A DNA stretch of 64,000 nt. Source: Gammaproteobacteria bacterium. GTDB lineage: Bacteria > Pseudomonadota > Gammaproteobacteria > HTCC5015. The notes beneath the pieces are model-generated. The model searched no databases, was not told the DNA's origin, and saw only the letters and a list, made by a program, of their open reading frames with translations. The stretch is from NCBI GenBank assembly GCA_013817245.1, contig JACDDA010000005.1, positions 62,001 through 126,000 of the forward strand. Reading direction: 5' to 3'. Position numbers and translations under genes: made by a program. This document shows, one piece after another, positions 4,919-13,087 of this stretch. The stretch's first letter is position 1. Every line of letters begins with the position of its first letter.

Positions 4919-6097
4919 ATGAAAACAGCTTTAAAAAATTTAAAACATATCAAAATCCTAAATCGTCTAGGGCAGGCCTTGGATGTAGGTTCTGGTAGTC
5001 GTTCCGGTTATCCAGCGGTGGTACAACAGTTTCGTAGTATCTTGGAATTGTCCGCAGTCAGCTTATGGGTGATTGATCGCAAGCATCAGCTATTAGTAAA
5101 AGAAGCGATGGACTTCGCACCCACCACGGAATTTTCCGAAGCGAAGTTGGCGCTTGATGAGAAACTGACTTATTGGCAATTAGAACATCGACAAAGAGTG
5201 TTAATTAAAAACGGCCAAGTAGTCGTGAGTAATTTTAATTTAGCGGAACAATATTCTGGCTCTGTTATCTCTTTGCCGCTGATATTTATGCAAGAGGTAT
5301 TTGGCGTATTAAATTTGCACGGCCTTGATGCGGCTCATTGGTTATTTAAACAAAGTAATGATGCCGATGAAAATGAATTTTTGCGTGCCATCAGTGGGCA
5401 GATGGCTGTTTTTGTACACAACAAATCATTAGAAGCGAACACCACTTTTTATAAAGAAATCCACCATCGCGTTAAAAACAATTTACAAACTGTTGCTAGT
5501 TTGCTGCGCATGCAGATTAGACGATTGGATAAAGTGCCGCCTAAACAAGTGCTAGAAGATAGTATTAATAGAATTTTAAGTATTGCCTTGGTGCATGAAA
5601 CTTTATCGCAAGGCGAAATCGGCATGGTCAATCTCGGCGATTTGATTACGCGGATAGTTAATTTGTTAATGGATAATTTGGCAGAAAAACCGCAGATCAT
5701 TATTAATTTATCGGGTGCGGTAATTATGCTAAATTCTAAACAAGCTACCTCTGTGGCATTAGTGTTAAATGAATTGCTGCACAACGCTTGTCAGCATGGT
5801 TTACGCAATAACGCAGCGGGTACGGTGATTGTGGAAGTAGCGCGTGACGCACAAAATATTAACATTGCTGTGATGGATGATGGTGTGGGCCTGGCGTCGG
5901 ATTTTAATGTAGATACCCATAGTCATTTAGGGTTGACGATTGTGGCGGCGTTGGTGGCTGATGATTTACATGGCCAATTAATTTTTTCCCAGAATACTCA
6001 AACCAAGAATATTCAAAAATCGCAACAGTCAGAATTAGGAACGCGTGTTGAGTTAATATTTCCATTACGCATTGATAGTGAGTTTATATATAAATGA
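4919..6097 (+). CDS. Soluble GAF-HisKA_2 sensor histidine kinase
   Basis: A 392-residue cytoplasmic histidine kinase with no membrane segment. Residues about 20-165 form a GAF-like sensor domain. Then comes the HisKA_2 dimerisation and phosphoacceptor helix with the H-box EIHHRVKNNLQ (around 180-190). The HATPase_c domain follows, with N-box ELLHNACQHG and G1 box MDDGVG. This is the class (as in EutW or PdtaS) that typically phosphorylates ANTAR response regulators, and the next gene, 8 bases downstream, encodes exactly that. The pair is therefore very likely one two-component system sensing a soluble ligand or redox signal through GAF. The signal is unknown. Confidence 0.9.
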   Translation: MKTALKNLKHIKILNRLGQALDVGSGSRSGYPAVVQQFRSILELSAVSLWVIDRKHQLLVKEAMDFAPTTEFSEAKLALDEKLTYWQLEHRQRVLIKNGQVVVSNFNLAEQYSGSVISLPLIFMQEVFGVLNLHGLDAAHWLFKQSNDADENEFLRAISGQMAVFVHNKSLEANTTFYKEIHHRVKNNLQTVASLLRMQIRRLDKVPPKQVLEDSINRILSIALVHETLSQGEIGMVNLGDLITRIVNLLMDNLAEKPQIIINLSGAVIMLNSKQATSVALVLNELLHNACQHGLRNNAAGTVIVEVARDAQNINIAVMDDGVGLASDFNVDTHSHLGLTIVAALVADDLHGQLIFSQNTQTKNIQKSQQSELGTRVELIFPLRIDSEFIYK

Positions 6098-6104
6098 GTT
6101 GCTT

Positions 6105-6671
6105 ATGAGTTTTCGGGTGTTAATTGCGGATGATGAAGCTTTAAATCGTCAAGATTTAAAAGAGTTGTTGGTAGAGCTGGGTTATAGCGTCACCGCTGAA
6201 GCGCGTGATGGTCGTCAAGCCCTGGCGTTGGTTGAGGCGCATAAACCAGATGTCGTCATCCTCGATATCATGATGCCGTATATAAATGGCATTGAAGTGG
6301 CAAAACAAATCAGCCATGAATACCCCGTCATTATGTTAACCGCGCATTCGAGCCCGGATTTTATTCACGATGCGCGTGATGCGGGCGTGATGGCGTATTT
6401 AACTAAACCTTATCGTGAAAAAGATATTGGTCCTGCTATTGAGCTAGCGGTGACGCATTTTATGCGTGAAGCGCATTTAAGCGAACGCGTAAACACCTTA
6501 GCTCAACAATTAGAAGCGCGCAAAATTATTGAGCGTGGCAAGTCTTTATTAATGCAGCATCAACAGTTAAGTGAAATGGATGCTTATCGACAAATGCAAA
6601 AACTCAGCATGGAAAAGAATATTTCCATGAAACAAGTCGCGGAAATGGTGATCGCCTTGTTAAATAAATGA
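6105..6671 (+). CDS. ANTAR-domain response regulator (RNA-binding antiterminator)
   Basis: A 188-residue response regulator. Start chosen at ATG 6105, where the protein begins MSFRVLIADDEA; an upstream TTG at 6072 would overlap the kinase and add an implausible leader. The receiver domain (about 1-120) keeps the acidic pair DDE, the phosphoacceptor Asp in ILDIMMP and the Lys in YLTKPY. Residues about 130-188 match the ANTAR helix bundle: LEARKIIERGKSLLM, then SEMDAYRQMQKLSMEKN and a final MKQVAEMVIALL. ANTAR proteins bind paired RNA hairpins with A1/G4 hexaloops and prevent termination. Several such hairpins lie in the leaders immediately downstream, so the targets are probably local. Confidence 0.92.
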   Translation: MSFRVLIADDEALNRQDLKELLVELGYSVTAEARDGRQALALVEAHKPDVVILDIMMPYINGIEVAKQISHEYPVIMLTAHSSPDFIHDARDAGVMAYLTKPYREKDIGPAIELAVTHFMREAHLSERVNTLAQQLEARKIIERGKSLLMQHQQLSEMDAYRQMQKLSMEKNISMKQVAEMVIALLNK

Positions 6672-6731
6672 GATATTTAATCGCAGGTGGAGTTGACTTT
6701 TGCTGATTCATTGACCATGCTTGATCCTAAT

Positions 6732-6749
6732 GAAGGTAACGAAGCCTTC
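6732..6749 (+). promoter_or_regulatory. ANTAR-type hexaloop hairpin (leader of acyl-CoA dehydrogenase)
   Basis: A hairpin of six pairs, GAAGGU with GCCUUC (closing pair U-G), carries the loop AACGAA with A at loop position 1 and G at 4, the pattern of ANTAR RNA targets. Its 3' arm (6744-6749) is also part of the 5' arm of the terminator at 6742-6782, so the two structures exclude each other. A second copy of the core, UAAUGAAG, starts 9 bases earlier, with a poor stem. Confidence 0.65.
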
Positions 6750-6787
6750 TTTGTTGCGCTAGCGCGTTGACAAAGAGGGCTTTTTTT
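6742..6787 (+). terminator. Intrinsic terminator / attenuator before acyl-CoA dehydrogenase
   Basis: A 13-pair stem (6742-6754 with 6770-6782, one G-U pair) with a GCGC-containing loop is followed by seven T at 6781-6787. It lies 49 bases before the acyl-CoA dehydrogenase start. It could simply terminate the two-component operon, but its overlap with the hexaloop hairpin suggests a regulated attenuator. Confidence 0.85.
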
Positions 6788-6835
6788 ATGTCTACGATAA
6801 AGTGGGCATTAACACATAACAGATGAGACACGCTG

Positions 6836-8098
6836 ATGGTGGATTTTAATCTTTCGGATGAACAACGCATGTATCAAAACACCGCGCGCGAATTTGCGTT
6901 GCGTGAAATTAAACCGGTTGCGGAAGCCATTCGACAACGTGATCCAGAAAAACAAAGTCCTTGGGATTTGATGCAAAGCGTTTACAAGAAAGCGTCAGCG
7001 TTGGGATTTACGAAATTATTAATTCCGGAACAATACGGCGGTTTAGGCGGCAGTTGTTTAGATAATGTTATTGTTATGGAAGAGTTTGGTGCGGCAGATT
7101 TAGGTATTGCTGCATCTTACTTTAATGTCAGCATGACTTCTCCGATTGTCATTATCAAAGGTGGCAATGAAGCGCAGCGACAACATTGGTTAACTCGCTT
7201 AGTAGAAGAAGATGATTTTGTACTTGCAAGCGCCAGCAGCGAAGCCAATGTCGCGGGTGCAGATTCGTTCTGTCCTTATCCAGATCCAAAAATTGGTTTG
7301 CGCAGTACTGCAAAATTAGATGGCGATAGTTACATTATCAATGGCAGCAAAGCGGGTTTTTCAACGAATGCAGGCGCGGCTAAAGCCTATTTTGTGATGG
7401 CGCGTACGGATTTAAATCAGCCGGCGTTTGCTAGCACCTCTATGTTTATAGTTGATGCGAACACGCCTGGCGTTACAGTTGGCAAAAAAACTAAATTAAT
7501 GGGCTGGAAAACCGCGATGCATGCGGAAGTTTATTTTGATGACGTGCGCATTCCAGTGGCTAATCGCATTGGTGCAGAAGGCGCGAATGCTGGAATATTT
7601 TTTATGCAAACCATTCCTTATTTAGCATCGGGCTTAGCTGCGGCGTATGTGGGCATGGCGCGTGCCGCGTATGAATATGCTTTTGAATATGCGCATCAAC
7701 GTGTTAGTTGGGGACAGCCTATTGTGAATCATCAAGCAGTAGCGTTGAAATTAGCGGATATGGTCGCCGATGTAGAAGCGGCGCGATTAATGGTGTGGCG
7801 TTTAGCGTGCGCTGCCGACGCAAATGATCCTTATGCGGCGGGTGTGTTATCGCCGGCTGCAAAAACGTTTGCAGTGGATGTTGCGATTCGTAATGCCGAA
7901 CGTGCACTGAAAATTTTAGGTGGTTATGGTTTGGCAGATGAATACGAAACCGGTAAATTTTTGAATGATGCGTGGATTGGTGATGCTTGTGATGGCACAC
8001 GCGATATGTTGCGATTAAGCATGGTAAATTTTTTACGGATGCAAGCGGGAAAAATGCCGATGCCGTCCATGGGTGGTGAGCAAGCACCTGGTCATTGA
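6836..8098 (+). CDS. Acyl-CoA dehydrogenase family protein
   Basis: A 420-residue FAD-dependent acyl-CoA dehydrogenase of normal length. The N-terminal helical domain starts with NLSDEQRMYQ. The middle beta domain includes LASASSEANVAGAD and the dehydrogenase signature region, and the C-terminal helical domain has AFEYAHQRVSWGQPI and LKILGGYGLADEY. The usual catalytic position near the C-terminus, E-G-T in most members, reads CDGT here, with Asp386 in place of Glu. No Glu is evident at the alternative site used by isovaleryl-CoA dehydrogenase, so substrate and even activity are open. The leader holds a hexaloop hairpin and terminator, and no beta-oxidation genes are adjacent. Start at ATG 6836. 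Confidence 0.88.
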   Translation: MVDFNLSDEQRMYQNTAREFALREIKPVAEAIRQRDPEKQSPWDLMQSVYKKASALGFTKLLIPEQYGGLGGSCLDNVIVMEEFGAADLGIAASYFNVSMTSPIVIIKGGNEAQRQHWLTRLVEEDDFVLASASSEANVAGADSFCPYPDPKIGLRSTAKLDGDSYIINGSKAGFSTNAGAAKAYFVMARTDLNQPAFASTSMFIVDANTPGVTVGKKTKLMGWKTAMHAEVYFDDVRIPVANRIGAEGANAGIFFMQTIPYLASGLAAAYVGMARAAYEYAFEYAHQRVSWGQPIVNHQAVALKLADMVADVEAARLMVWRLACAADANDPYAAGVLSPAAKTFAVDVAIRNAERALKILGGYGLADEYETGKFLNDAWIGDACDGTRDMLRLSMVNFLRMQAGKMPMPSMGGEQAPGH

Positions 8099-8194
8099 AT
8101 AATTGAATAGCGGCGGCATACTAAATGCTGGCTATTTGTTATTAAGTTATGTTTCTAGAGTTTGTAATGGTATGACTGCGTTCTAAACTGCTCG

Positions 8195-8218
8195 CACGAG
8201 GTAATGAAGCCTCCTGTG
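8195..8218 (+). promoter_or_regulatory. ANTAR-type hexaloop hairpin (leader of NmrA-like gene)
   Basis: Stem GAGGU/GCCUC closes the hexaloop AAUGAA (8203-8208; A at loop position 1, G at 4). After a two-base bulge it is extended by CAC/GUG. The 3' arm overlaps the 5' arm of the terminator starting at 8207. A weaker upstream hairpin with loop AAUGGU near 8166-8171 could be the first hairpin of a pair. Confidence 0.68.
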
Positions 8219-8257
8219 TTTTATCAAGCATGCTTGATAAATCTAGGGGGCTTTTTT
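8207..8257 (+). terminator. Intrinsic terminator / attenuator before NmrA-like gene
   Basis: Outer arms AAGCCTCC (8207-8214) and GGGGGCTT (8246-8253) pair, around an inner perfect 22-base palindrome at 8220-8241. Six T follow the G-rich arm (8252-8257). It lies 47 bases before the next start codon. Confidence 0.85.
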
Positions 8258-8303
8258 ATGGCTGTGTTGTACAGCTTGAGTGTAAATTTATTAGGAGTGA
8301 AAG

Positions 8304-9227
8304 ATGCTGTTGATTACTGGACCTAATGGCAATATCGGTACTGAGTTGGTGCGCAAAGTGAAGCAATTAGGCGATATTGAATATCGTATTGCCGCGCATA
8401 CGCCTGCCAAAATTAAACATCTCTATGGTAACGACACTCCTTGCGTAAAATTTGATTACGCCGATCGTACAACGTGGCCCGCTGCGTTGCAGGGTGTGAC
8501 CACGCTGTTTTTATTATTTCCTTTGCCGCATCCACGCACAGCAAAAACGTGGATGGTGCCTTTTGTTGAGGCTGCCGCGCAATCGGGTATCAAGCATATT
8601 ATTTATTGCTCTGTGCCTGGTGCTGAAAAATATTCTTTTATTCCACATAATGCCGTTGAAAATGCTGTTAGAAATTCGGGTGTGTCTTACACCATTTTAC
8701 AAGCATCCTATTTTGCTCAGAATTTATGCCGTGATATCACCACACATTCCTACGATATTGCGACACGGGATGAGATTTTTTTACCGGCTAAAAAAGGGTT
8801 AACATCGTTTATTGATTCGCGTGATATGGCCGAAGTGGTGGTGAGTATTATCAAAAATCCAGCGCCGCATGTCGGTAAAACCCACGTATTAACAGGGCCT
8901 GAAAAACTTAATTTATATCAAGTGGCGAATATTTTTACGGATGTTACCGGCCGAAAAATTTGCTACAGCAATCCTTCTATGCCGCGTTTTTTATGGCGCT
9001 TATGGCATCGCGGTATGAGTTGGGATGTATTAGCTTTTATGATGATCGTTTATTTCTTAACGCGTCATGGCAAAAATGCGCCGATGACCAATACTTTGGG
9101 TGAGTTATTAGGCCGCTCCCCTACGACGATGCGCGAATTTGTCCGCGATTATGCGCAGCACTGGCAACCACGTCAGGAAGTACTAGTACCGCAAACTGAG
9201 AATAGTCATGCAAGAGCCGTCGGTTAA
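8304..9227 (+). CDS. NmrA-like NAD(P)-binding oxidoreductase
   Basis: A 307-residue atypical short-chain dehydrogenase. It starts directly with the Rossmann motif LLITGPNGNIGTEL (GxxGxxG form) after an AGGAG ribosome-binding site. Other family marks are LFLLFPLP after the fourth strand, IKHIIYCSVPGA, and YTILQASYFAQN. These match NmrA/HSCARG-type proteins, which act as NAD(P)H-dependent quinone or redox sensors or reductases. The catalytic YxxxK of classical SDRs is absent, as expected for this group. It is monocistronic behind its own attenuator-like leader, suggesting co-regulation with the acyl-CoA dehydrogenase. Substrate unknown. Confidence 0.82.
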   Translation: MLLITGPNGNIGTELVRKVKQLGDIEYRIAAHTPAKIKHLYGNDTPCVKFDYADRTTWPAALQGVTTLFLLFPLPHPRTAKTWMVPFVEAAAQSGIKHIIYCSVPGAEKYSFIPHNAVENAVRNSGVSYTILQASYFAQNLCRDITTHSYDIATRDEIFLPAKKGLTSFIDSRDMAEVVVSIIKNPAPHVGKTHVLTGPEKLNLYQVANIFTDVTGRKICYSNPSMPRFLWRLWHRGMSWDVLAFMMIVYFLTRHGKNAPMTNTLGELLGRSPTTMREFVRDYAQHWQPRQEVLVPQTENSHARAVG

Positions 9228-9265
9228 TTGACTATCTGAATATTGACTCAGCAATTGCATCTGCT

Positions 9266-9277
9266 CACTAATTAGTG
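9266..9277. promoter_or_regulatory. Perfect 12-base palindrome, possible operator
   Basis: CACTAATTAGTG is a perfect inverted repeat lying just upstream of the TTGACA element before the TonB-dependent receptor. Position and symmetry suit a dimeric regulator site; the regulator is unknown. Confidence 0.35.
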
Positions 9278-9290
9278 CGCTTGCAAATGG

Positions 9291-9319
9291 TTGACAAATT
9301 TTGTAACTCGGCACAGGAT
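9291..9319 (+). promoter_or_regulatory. Candidate sigma-70 promoter of the TonB-dependent receptor
   Basis: TTGACA (9291-9296) is a perfect -35 element. Seventeen bases later is CAGGAT, a weak -10 that matches TATAAT at three positions. A transcript from here would include the hexaloop hairpin at 9338-9351. Confidence 0.5.
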
Positions 9320-9337
9320 TGGTTCTAGCTATACACG

Positions 9338-9351
9338 AGGCAAGGCCGCCT
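9338..9351 (+). promoter_or_regulatory. Candidate ANTAR-type hexaloop hairpin (leader of TonB-dependent receptor)
   Basis: Stem AGGC/GCCU closes the hexaloop AAGGCC, with A at loop position 1 and G at 4. Only four pairs. A possible competing stem joins CCGC (9346-9349) with GCGG (9377-9380), which is followed by TTTT; this is weaker than in the two upstream leaders. Confidence 0.42.
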
Positions 9352-9439
9352 AGTCAGTATTTTCCGTTCTATAGATGCGGTTTTGCTAGATAAAATATTG
9401 CAGGATCATCCGATCTCTGCGACTGTTGAGGGAATAAAC

Positions 9440-11701
9440 ATGGTGTGTAAGAAACTATTTAAACCTAAAGTGCTATTTGCCAGTTTGTTGGTGAGTGGTC
9501 TAGTCACTAGTAATGCTCTTTCCGCTGCTGAACTAACAGAAATTGTTGTTACTTCGCAAAAGCGTGCGCAAAATTTACAAGAAGTCCCTGTTTCGGTAAC
9601 TGCCTTTACTGGCGATACCTTAGAAGAAATGGGTGTAGACAGTGTGGGTGGCGTTACTAATTTTGCTCCTAACGTGAGTAGCTCTTCAGGTCCTGCTGGT
9701 GGCAGCGATGGTTTCTTTTTTATTCGTGGCGTAGGCCAAGCTGATAACAGTGTCTCGGTAGATCCAGGCGTGGGTACGTATGTTGATGAAGTTTATTTAG
9801 GTCGCGTACAAGGTGCTTCGTTTGATTTATTAGACATTGAACGCGTAGAAGTATTACGTGGTCCACAAGGTACTATCTTTGGTCGTAATACAATTGGTGG
9901 TGCTATTAGCGTAATAACGGCTGATCCTAAAGACGAATTTACTATTGGTGGTAAGGTTAAAGTAGGCCAAGCATCGCGTCGAGATGTGTCGCTTACCTCA
10001 GATATACCCTTTGCAGATACAGTTGGTATGAAAGTGTCACTGCATTCTCTGAATCAAGAAGGTTGGGCAGAGAATAAAGCTCCTGGCAGTCATTACGATG
10101 ATACCTATGGTGATGTTGATACCTTGGGTGGTCGAGCTAAATTAGTGTGGGATGCTACTGATGACTTAACGATCAAATTCGCGGCTGATGCTTCGAAAGG
10201 CAGGGGTACTCAGGCTCCGATGATATTAACGAATTATGATCCTGCTAATAATGCACTTCCGGGGTTATCACCTGTCGGCGTTCCGTTACCTCCTTCCGCA
10301 GCAATGGCATCACAGCTCTCCACCGATCGTGAAGAAATTTTTGCTTCTACTCCTGCGCAATTAGATACCGATGCCTCTGGCGTATCAGCAACAATAGCGT
10401 GGGAAGGTCCAATTACTATTAAGTCTATTACGTCGGCACGTCAATTAGAGCAAACGACATGGTTTGATTTAGATGGTTCTGCATACACTATTTACGATAG
10501 TTTTAGTTACATTGATCAAGATCAACAAAGTCAAGAGTTCCAATTTTCCGGCGCTGCATTAGATGATCGTTTAAGTTGGTTGGCTGGGTTATATTTTTTC
10601 AAAGAAGATATCAAGAACACGGTTGATATTTGTGTAGGCGGTAATATAGCGTTTAACGATCCAAGTTGTTTATTAAGCCACAACAATATTGAACTAGAAA
10701 CTACTTCAAATGCAGTATTTACGCATATGGAATATGAGTTTATTGATCAATGGACGGGGATATTAGGTGTGCGTTATACGAAAGAAGAAAAAGAACAGTT
10801 GTCAGCATCTGTTTTAGATAATACAGATGGTGTATTTACTGTTTTCCCTCCTTTTATTATTCCGGCTCCTGGCACTACTATAGATTTAGGCAGTGTTCCG
10901 GGTAAAGACTCTTGGAGTGAGACTACACCTAAGATAGGTCTTCGTTATGAATTAACTGAAGATTTAATGTTCTACGGGACCTATTCTGAAGGCTTCAAAA
11001 GTGGTGGCTTCAGTGGTCGTCCCAGTTCTTTAATTACTGCATTGACCACTTATGACCCAGAAACCGTACAAACAATAGAGGCGGGAGTAAAGTCCGAATT
11101 TGGTCCTATTCGATTGAATGCCGCAGTATTTAAATCTGATTATCAAAATATACAGTTATTGGTAATTAATAATACTAATGGTGTTTTTGATACTCGGAAT
11201 GTTGGGGATGCGGATTTCACCGGCGTAGAAGTAGAAGCTCAAGCTTTTCTGTCAGAAGCTTTGCAGTTAATGTTCGGTTTAGGTTGGTTGGATAATGAAT
11301 ACACCTCACTACGTCAACCTACTGCGCCCCAAACTTTAACCGTTGAACTGAGTGATAAATTACCTAATACGCCGGAATGGACTGCGAGCCTAGGTGCTCA
11401 GTACGCGATATTTTTCGGGGATAATAAGTTAGCGATCCGAGGTGATTATAACTGGCGGGATGAATTTTATTTTCAAGTAGAAAATGATGCCGGTGAATTA
11501 CAAGAAGCCTATGGTGTGTTAAATCTCCGTGCTGCTTATAGTTGGGCAGCTGAGACTCAGACGCTGGCCTTATACGGTGAGAACGTGACTGATGAAGAAT
11601 ATAATTTGAATATGCAGGACTCAAGAGGCACATTTGCGACCAATATCGTGACGCCGGCTAGACCTGCTGAATGGGGCGTTGAATACGCTTTTGCATTCTA
11701 A
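9440..11701 (+). CDS. TonB-dependent outer-membrane receptor
   Basis: A 753-residue outer-membrane transporter. Start chosen at ATG 9440 because of the GAGGGA ribosome-binding sequence and because the protein then begins with a clean signal peptide (positively charged KKLFKPK, hydrophobic core, cleavage after NALSA). The TonB box region EIVVTSQKR follows at once. The plug domain contains SVTAFTGDTLEEMGV and VEVLRGPQGTIFGRNTIGG. The barrel occupies the rest and ends in the aromatic VEYAFAF typical of beta-barrel export. It resembles the broad environmental iron-complex/outer-membrane receptor group; the ligand cannot be assigned. Its leader carries a possible hexaloop hairpin. Confidence 0.93.
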   Translation: MVCKKLFKPKVLFASLLVSGLVTSNALSAAELTEIVVTSQKRAQNLQEVPVSVTAFTGDTLEEMGVDSVGGVTNFAPNVSSSSGPAGGSDGFFFIRGVGQADNSVSVDPGVGTYVDEVYLGRVQGASFDLLDIERVEVLRGPQGTIFGRNTIGGAISVITADPKDEFTIGGKVKVGQASRRDVSLTSDIPFADTVGMKVSLHSLNQEGWAENKAPGSHYDDTYGDVDTLGGRAKLVWDATDDLTIKFAADASKGRGTQAPMILTNYDPANNALPGLSPVGVPLPPSAAMASQLSTDREEIFASTPAQLDTDASGVSATIAWEGPITIKSITSARQLEQTTWFDLDGSAYTIYDSFSYIDQDQQSQEFQFSGAALDDRLSWLAGLYFFKEDIKNTVDICVGGNIAFNDPSCLLSHNNIELETTSNAVFTHMEYEFIDQWTGILGVRYTKEEKEQLSASVLDNTDGVFTVFPPFIIPAPGTTIDLGSVPGKDSWSETTPKIGLRYELTEDLMFYGTYSEGFKSGGFSGRPSSLITALTTYDPETVQTIEAGVKSEFGPIRLNAAVFKSDYQNIQLLVINNTNGVFDTRNVGDADFTGVEVEAQAFLSEALQLMFGLGWLDNEYTSLRQPTAPQTLTVELSDKLPNTPEWTASLGAQYAIFFGDNKLAIRGDYNWRDEFYFQVENDAGELQEAYGVLNLRAAYSWAAETQTLALYGENVTDEEYNLNMQDSRGTFATNIVTPARPAEWGVEYAFAF

Positions 11702-11724
11702 ATTTAAATTAATGCCTTAAGACG

Positions 11725-11775
11725 CTCGCGTCATTTATACCTGGTTGATTAGGTGTAAGTGACGCGAGTTTTTTT
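11725..11775 (+). terminator. Intrinsic terminator after the TonB-dependent receptor
   Basis: A long hairpin: CTCGCGTCA (11725-11733) pairs with TGACGCGAG (11760-11768), with further pairing inside, followed by seven T. It ends 27 bases before the cytochrome b561 start, so it may limit readthrough into that gene. No A1/G4 hexaloop is seen here. Confidence 0.85.
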
Positions 11776-11802
11776 ATAAATATTTGAACAGGAAAGACAG
11801 CA

Positions 11803-12336
11803 ATGGTGACACGTTATAGTCCGTTTTTAGTTGCGATACATTGGATGGTCGCGTTTTTAGTGATTTTAGGTTTAGTGATAGGTAACGTGGTTTTAGAGCA
11901 TATGCCTAATGACGATCCTCAAAAAATCTTAGCCTTAAAAGGCCACATGGCTGCGGGCATTTTCGTATTGGTATTAATGCTGATCCGTATTTTTGTGAAA
12001 TTATTTAGTGAAAAACCGCCGCATGCTAATACCGGCAAATTATTTTTTGATAAATTACGCACGGTTGTACATGTGTTGTTTTATATCTGCGTGATCGCAT
12101 TGACGGTGAGTGGTATAGGTTTAGCGGTTACTGCCGGCTTATTTGATATTGTATTTGGAAATTCTGGCCAACCATTACCTGCATCGTTTGATGCTTTTCC
12201 ACCGCTTAAAGGACATCAATTATTTGGTAGTATTTTGATGGTCTTAGTAGTGCTGCATGTAGTGGCGGTGATTTATCATCAGTTTGTTTTAAAAGATAAA
12301 TTAATATCGCGCATGTGGTTTGGCCGTCGCTCGTGA
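11803..12336 (+). CDS. Cytochrome b561 family protein
   Basis: A 177-residue four-helix membrane protein of the di-haem cytochrome b561 / Ni-Fe-hydrogenase b-type fold. Likely haem-ligand histidines lie in IHWMVAF (TM1), KGHMAAGI (TM2), the third helix start VVHVLFY, and GHQLFG with LHVVAVIYHQF at the end. Such proteins pass electrons from quinol to periplasmic acceptors, or oxidise superoxide in E. coli CybB. It is a single gene after the receptor terminator, with an AGGAAAG ribosome-binding sequence. The electron partner is unknown. Confidence 0.88.
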   Translation: MVTRYSPFLVAIHWMVAFLVILGLVIGNVVLEHMPNDDPQKILALKGHMAAGIFVLVLMLIRIFVKLFSEKPPHANTGKLFFDKLRTVVHVLFYICVIALTVSGIGLAVTAGLFDIVFGNSGQPLPASFDAFPPLKGHQLFGSILMVLVVLHVVAVIYHQFVLKDKLISRMWFGRRS

Positions 12337-12358
12337 TTATATTGTAAGTTTCATACAT

Positions 12359-12392
12359 CGTAACGCTTAGGTAATGACGCCTGAGCGTTACG
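12359..12392 (+). promoter_or_regulatory. Strong hairpin with ANTAR-type hexaloop
   Basis: A 14-pair stem (12359-12372 with 12379-12392, two U-G pairs) closes the hexaloop AAUGAC, with A at loop position 1 and G at 4 and the core GGU-AAUGAC-GCC. The loop strand AATGACG (12373-12379) can instead pair with CGTCATT (12391-12397), which is followed by a T-rich stretch. It lies 54 bases before the next gene. It could also be a plain terminator of the b561 gene, but the T tract is poor. Confidence 0.55.
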
Positions 12393-12445
12393 TCATTTCT
12401 TGTTAGTTCATTAATATCAATAATTTCTTACTGCCGGAGGTATCT

Positions 12446-13087
12446 ATGCAGCAGCGTGCGCGTATTCGATTGGGTATATTCTGTTTGTTGGCTTCAGGAA
12501 TATTGACTGTCATTGGTTTGTATTTGCGCGGGCCTATTATTGATCAAGTAACACACACGGATGCGTATGTGGCTGGAGCATTAGCCAGTACTCATGTGTA
12601 TGCTTGGAGTTTGTTAATTCCTAGTTTAGTCATTCAATGTTTTGGTTGGATCGCTTTATGGGCGTATGTTAAAGATACTCCGCAAGAAGGTTTAGCGTTC
12701 TGGGGTATGGTGTTAAGCATTATCGGCAATGGTTTGTTTTTGCCGTTTACCGGCGTTATCGCTTTTGTTTCGCCGGCGGTGGCGCAGCTTTATATAGAAG
12801 GTTTGCCAGCGGCTATTGGTATTGTTAACAGTGGGTTAGCAGGGAGTTTTGCATTACCCTTTTTAATTCTTTCTGCTTTAACACTTTTGATAGGCGCAAT
12901 TTTGCATAGTATTGTGTTGTGGAAATCATCATTGTTACCTACATGGACGGCATTGCCTTATTTGTGGCATGCCTTAGCGCTGACATTTATTGCCCCGTTA
13001 TCGTATGCAGCAGAGTTTTCCGGCGGCGTATGTTTGTTATTAACAACGGCTGCAATTACTCTAAATGTGTGGCGGCAGACTAAATAG
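12446..13087 (+). CDS. Multi-pass membrane protein of unknown function
   Basis: A 213-residue hydrophobic protein with about six predicted membrane segments: near residues 8-27, 52-75, 84-108, 125-150, 165-185 and 190-207. It has no recognised catalytic motif. The start follows a good CCGGAGG ribosome-binding site. It ends 6 bases from the convergent metallopeptidase gene. Its leader has the strong hexaloop hairpin, linking it by inference to the ANTAR group of genes. I do not recognise the family. Confidence 0.72.
   Translation: MQQRARIRLGIFCLLASGILTVIGLYLRGPIIDQVTHTDAYVAGALASTHVYAWSLLIPSLVIQCFGWIALWAYVKDTPQEGLAFWGMVLSIIGNGLFLPFTGVIAFVSPAVAQLYIEGLPAAIGIVNSGLAGSFALPFLILSALTLLIGAILHSIVLWKSSLLPTWTALPYLWHALALTFIAPLSYAAEFSGGVCLLLTTAAITLNVWRQTK

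Follow-up and report, generated by a model that had tools for sequence, protein, structure and literature searches.

A putative local ANTAR antitermination regulon with one hexaloop per leader in two distant gammaproteobacteria

We analyzed a 64,000-nucleotide stretch of gammaproteobacterial DNA (here called the window; all its features given below lie on the + strand) and found genes for a soluble histidine kinase and an ANTAR response regulator followed by four hairpins with six-base loops (hexaloops) in the leaders of metabolic and membrane genes. This arrangement very probably represents a local ANTAR antitermination regulon whose targets function in uptake and oxidation, not in nitrogen metabolism, and which has one hexaloop per leader. 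A local ANTAR regulon had been proposed in a preliminary description of this DNA, and that reading is now supported by conservation in a distant gammaproteobacterium of another order (G122; 5.0 Mb) and by covariance models applied across the two genomes.

The first gene of the locus (4919 to 6097) encodes a sensor histidine kinase of the PdtaS/EutW type, with GAF, HisKA_2, and HATPase_c domains (Pfam), and the regulator gene (6105 to 6671), which begins 7 nt behind it, encodes a response regulator with a Response_reg domain and a C-terminal ANTAR RNA-binding domain. Pfam thus agrees with the preliminary assignment of a soluble GAF-HisKA_2 kinase and an ANTAR regulator, and a search for membrane segments in the kinase found none. 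The receiver and ANTAR domains both score above the curated cutoffs (E value of 4e-17 for ANTAR). The kinase has the HisKA_2 phospho-acceptor histidine (EIHHRVKNNLQT), and the receiver aspartate of the regulator is present (VVILDIMMP). Over its full length, the regulator has as its closest solved relatives PdtaR (E value, 4e-49) and EutV (E value, 4e-35). The EutV residues that hold G4 of the loop, R142, K149, E160, Y164, and M172 (PMC8934654), correspond to R, K, E, Y, and M in the window regulator, and the stem-backbone contacts N173/R175/R177 are replaced by E/N/S; the G122 regulator has a Phe at the position of Tyr164.

No ANTAR gene other than that of the regulator occurs in the 2.27-Mb genome, and the G122 regulator is likewise the sole ANTAR gene of its genome. 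Two family mates of the window genome, G001 and G003, possess other ANTAR genes (L076, L077, and L078), the neighbors of which resemble the context of nitrate/nitrite or transporter regulators; these genes are missing from the window genome, and the family mates showed no cluster of hairpins. GTDB contigs scanned with the regulator yielded receiver-domain relatives only, and plasmids searched for the kinase yielded kinase-core relatives only, such as EutW and PdtaS.

We found the sequences and positions of the hairpins to bear out the preliminary description of four same-strand hexaloop hairpins, all with A1 and G4 in the loop. Leaders 1 and 2 carry gaaggt-AACGAA-gccttc (6732 to 6749) and gaggt-AATGAA-gcctc (8198 to 8213), both proposed antiterminators, and leader 3 carries aggc-AAGGCC-gcct (9338 to 9351). 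In leader 4, the hexaloop AATGAC caps a 14-bp stem (12359 to 12392), and a weak alternative hairpin can form (AATGACG/CGTCATT). When the G122 leaders are included, A1 and G4 occur in a hexanucleotide loop on a paired stem in 8/8 leaders, and the stem covaries: in two of six pairs both partners are changed, and 96% of the cells are paired. The exact pattern AGGYAANGNNGCCT has five matches in the 2.27-Mb genome, four of which are the window leaders, on one strand and within 5.7 kb; the fifth is located on another contig, inside a 727-codon open frame of an unrelated gene. Base counting expects ∼2 matches per genome and gives a chance of ∼1e-12 for four in the window cluster, and in eight other genomes, a reversed control pattern matched 0 to 4 times each. 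The one-mismatch matches that we inspected in the same genome fall in long open frames. The window hairpins are therefore real, beyond chance. Rfam at its gathering thresholds reported no ANTAR family in the window.

G122 was the sole genome among 369 of the class with a full-length homologue of the kinase. Identities to the window proteins are 48 to 50% for the kinase, 65% for the regulator, 72% for the dehydrogenase, 45% for the TonB-dependent receptor, 51% for cytochrome b561, and 56% for the membrane protein; a counterpart of the NmrA-like protein was missing from the G122 cluster. In G122, the kinase and regulator genes are followed by two leader hairpins and then the acyl-CoA dehydrogenase gene, and ∼10 kb farther on come a cytochrome c gene and a block of TonB receptor, b561, and membrane protein genes; the cytochrome c gene and the block each have a separate hairpin. 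Between the dehydrogenase and the receptor, this cluster also contains a cytochrome c and a pair of adjacent molybdoenzymes, relatives of the type II DMSO reductase family (L075:1944-6732). Matches to the AGGT form of the hairpin in G122 were all four in the homologous cluster, and two matches to the AGGC form were on other contigs. The hairpin of window leader 4 is absent from G122.

A covariance search of the genome and its relatives had been set beforehand, and in it G122 turned out to keep the kinase-regulator pair, the hairpins, and the main targets. A model built from the four G122 hairpins placed hairpins 1, 2, and 4 of the window in the top three ranks over the 64 kb and missed hairpin 3, which scored at chance level; conversely, a model built from the four window hairpins put all four hairpins of G122 at the top of the ranking over 50 kb. 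With a joint model, each genome yielded four strong matches, followed by chance-level ones (the training sequences match by construction). Among the 369 sampled gammaproteobacteria, more than one hairpin match was found only in the window genome and G122. Single matches elsewhere could be placed in 18/21 cases, all but one in long open frames. In another gammaproteobacterium (G095), a lone hexaloop, GGAGGCAAGGAAGCCTCC, was observed outside any long open frame (L139, near position 1504). No further full-length kinase was found in a phylum sample of 398 genomes or in a second class sample, and no further genome was found in the order of G122, which leaves G122 as the one relative in the samples with both the kinase-regulator pair and the hairpin cluster.

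The hexaloop overlaps a mutually exclusive stem-loop in 6/8 leaders, and five of these stem-loops are clear intrinsic terminators. For leaders 1 and 2 of the window and leaders 2 to 4 of G122, the 3' arm of the hexaloop opens the terminator stem, which is followed by 6 to 10 U; the terminators of leaders 1 (6741 to 6787) and 2 (8206 to 8256) have U-tracts of 7 and 6 bases, respectively. In leader 1 of G122, the stem is strong but the U-run is poor. When the leader 1 RNA of the window was folded at growing lengths, the hexaloop appeared before the terminator, and in six leaders (window leaders 1 and 2 and G122 leaders 1 to 4), the terminator fold was favored by 8 to 13 kcal/mol over the forced hexaloop. 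Throughout the window, hexaloops with an overlapping terminator numbered two for A1/G4 loops and 0 to 2 for other loop types, a count that is weak evidence alone. We propose that the cytosolic GAF-HisKA_2 kinase would phosphorylate the REC-ANTAR regulator upon a cytosolic signal and that the acyl-CoA dehydrogenase, NmrA, and TonB receptor transcripts would form the small A1/G4 hexaloop on leaving RNA polymerase. Without the regulator, the more stable terminator would take the 3' arm of the hexaloop and transcription would stop; phosphorylated regulator bound to the loop would block the terminator, and the genes would be read.

This antitermination reading, already put forward in the preliminary description, has a clear anatomical basis in leaders 1 and 2 of the window, but leaders 3 and 4 have no convincing terminator. 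In these two leaders, and perhaps in others, it is possible, if rather unlikely, that the bound regulator controls translation or RNA stability, or that the RNA titrates the regulator, instead of antitermination. Leader 3 has an alternative stem excluding the hexaloop (9339 to 9387), which lacks a U-run and is not convincing as a terminator, and the hexaloop of leader 4 caps a stem that is too stable for displacement, with no overlapping terminator seen; moreover, mycobacterial ANTAR targets were reported to act on translation (PMC8164766). Against this, the hairpins are clear of the likely ribosome-binding sites, and the TonB receptor leader of G122 retains a strong terminator, so that antitermination may be the older state.

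The 2012 definition of ANTAR RNAs calls for two hexaloops per leader, and the leaders described here depart from it, a point that the preliminary description missed. Candidates for a second, upstream hexaloop (P1) were found in 2/8 leaders against 15% expected for each, which is about the chance rate, and in none of the four G122 leaders. TTGAC is present 40 to 47 nt before the hairpin in 5/8 leaders (shuffling P value of ∼2e-8, for a test chosen after seeing the sequences). The predicted promoters of leader 1 (TTGACT, 17 nt, CATGCT; 6693 to 6721) and leader 3 (TTGACA, 17 nt, CAGGAT; 9291 to 9319) have weak -10 boxes, and the TTGAC promoters were not listed by a promoter scan with its thresholds. 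With a spacer of 17 to 18 nt, transcripts are predicted to start ∼2 to 12 nt before the hairpin stem, near 6728 for leader 1. Each leader would have one hexaloop, which in most cases directly begins the predicted RNA or follows closely behind its 5' end, and would lack the upstream partner hairpin that EutV, NasR, and AmiR targets possess.

A lone hexaloop might nevertheless not suffice, because antitermination by EutV requires both hexaloops, closely spaced (PMC3369931, PMC8934654). The leaders could thus belong to an ordinary dual-hexaloop ANTAR system, with a cryptic, short or imperfect P1 upstream and a transcript start farther away than predicted. All characterized antiterminating ANTAR targets do have two hexaloops (PMC3369931), and leaders 2 and 3 contain weak upstream candidates (ttgtAATGGTatga and aggATTGGTtct, respectively). 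We nevertheless consider this improbable, given the chance-level frequency of such candidates and their absence from G122, the distance of 22 nt in leader 2 compared to linkers of 5 to 12 nt in EutV targets, and the predicted transcript starts, which in five leaders are so near the hairpin that no room is left for a second one. The balance tips slightly toward the view that one hexaloop, situated right at the transcript's 5' end, is sufficient for ANTAR antitermination and controls the uptake and oxidation of a substrate instead of nitrogen genes; the regulator would then have to catch the RNA as it leaves the polymerase. Finally, the hairpins could be mere 5' parts of repeated terminators that were duplicated in the cluster and are unrelated to the ANTAR protein, and some similarity does follow from the hexaloop 3' arm belonging to the terminator, but this is very improbable, as the 5' arm and loop AGGTAAYG are conserved outside the terminator whereas the loops of the terminators differ, the hexaloop persists in leaders 3 and 4 although a terminator is lacking there, and hairpin clusters are confined to the two genomes that have the kinase-regulator pair.

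For the local ANTAR regulon that we favor, the downstream genes were assigned by Pfam as an acyl-CoA dehydrogenase-like putative target (6836 to 8098), an NmrA-like NAD(P)-binding protein (8304 to 9227), a TonB-dependent receptor, also a putative target (9440 to 11701, starting at an ATG behind AGGG), and cytochrome b561 (11803 to 12336), in agreement with the preliminary description; the membrane protein that it had placed last (12446 to 13087; L100:8571-9260 in G122) has no Pfam match. In both genomes, the dehydrogenase (6836 to 8098 and L075:9560-10780) reads CDGT at the YEGT site of solved relatives, which puts Asp in the place of the usual catalytic Glu, and it may catalyze a reaction other than ordinary acyl-CoA dehydrogenation; no NCBIfam equivalog fits this protein. 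Between the TonB receptor and cytochrome b561, we observed a 20-bp terminator with seven T and without a hexaloop (11724 to 11775); b561 and the membrane protein may therefore need another promoter. The conserved set consists of the acyl-CoA dehydrogenase, the TonB receptor, cytochrome b561, and the membrane protein, and contains no nitrogen-metabolism targets. Together, the receptor, b561, and dehydrogenase, joined in G122 by cytochromes c and two molybdoenzymes, suggest the uptake and oxidation of an organic substrate. Among the papers retrieved in searches on ANTAR domains with TonB receptors or acyl-CoA dehydrogenases, none describes such a regulon by title and abstract.

Published ANTAR regulons follow a pattern of nitrogen metabolism (PMC3369931). 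The nitrate and amide use named in the preliminary description is part of it, but the known regulons also include denitrification and nitrogenase in proteobacteria and, as suggested, lipid and redox metabolism in mycobacteria (PMC3369931, PMC6759348, PMC8164766). The target genes found here would take proteobacterial ANTAR antitermination outside nitrogen metabolism. The authors of the EutV-RNA crystal structure redefined the minimal binding motif as one hexaloop, with two still needed for antitermination, and asked how widely single hexaloops are used (PMC8934654); the eight leaders of two distant bacteria are natural candidates for such use. To judge from the sequences, the new element is that a P1 beyond chance is seen in 0/8 leaders, and the type of ANTAR RNA switch is itself known.

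Indeed, the antiterminator/terminator anatomy is that described for EutV, NasR, and AmiR (PMC3369931). The mycobacterial PdtaS-PdtaR system (Rv1626; PDB 1s8n) also combines a cytosolic HisKA_2 kinase with a REC-ANTAR regulator, and its targets were suggested to function in lipid and redox metabolism (PMC8164766); PdtaR, however, recognizes two-stem motifs and is often thought to act on translation, whereas in the leaders reported here a terminator overlaps a lone hexaloop, and the target genes are neighbors of the regulator genes. With EutW-EutV from Enterococcus (PDB 6wsh and 6ww6), the locus shares the HisKA_2 kinase, the REC-ANTAR regulator with its G4-contact residues, and several terminators in one locus with A1/G4 hexaloops, but EutV targets have P1 and P2 separated by a linker of 5 to 12 nt and concern ethanolamine genes, whereas we found no P1 here, and the target genes are of unrelated kinds. 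The proteobacterial targets of NasR, NasS-NasT, and AmiR resemble ours in that the hexaloop overlaps the leader terminator in Gram-negative bacteria; those systems differ in their other sensory partners, in their nitrogen-gene targets, and in the two hexaloops of the nasF and amiE leaders (PMC3369931).
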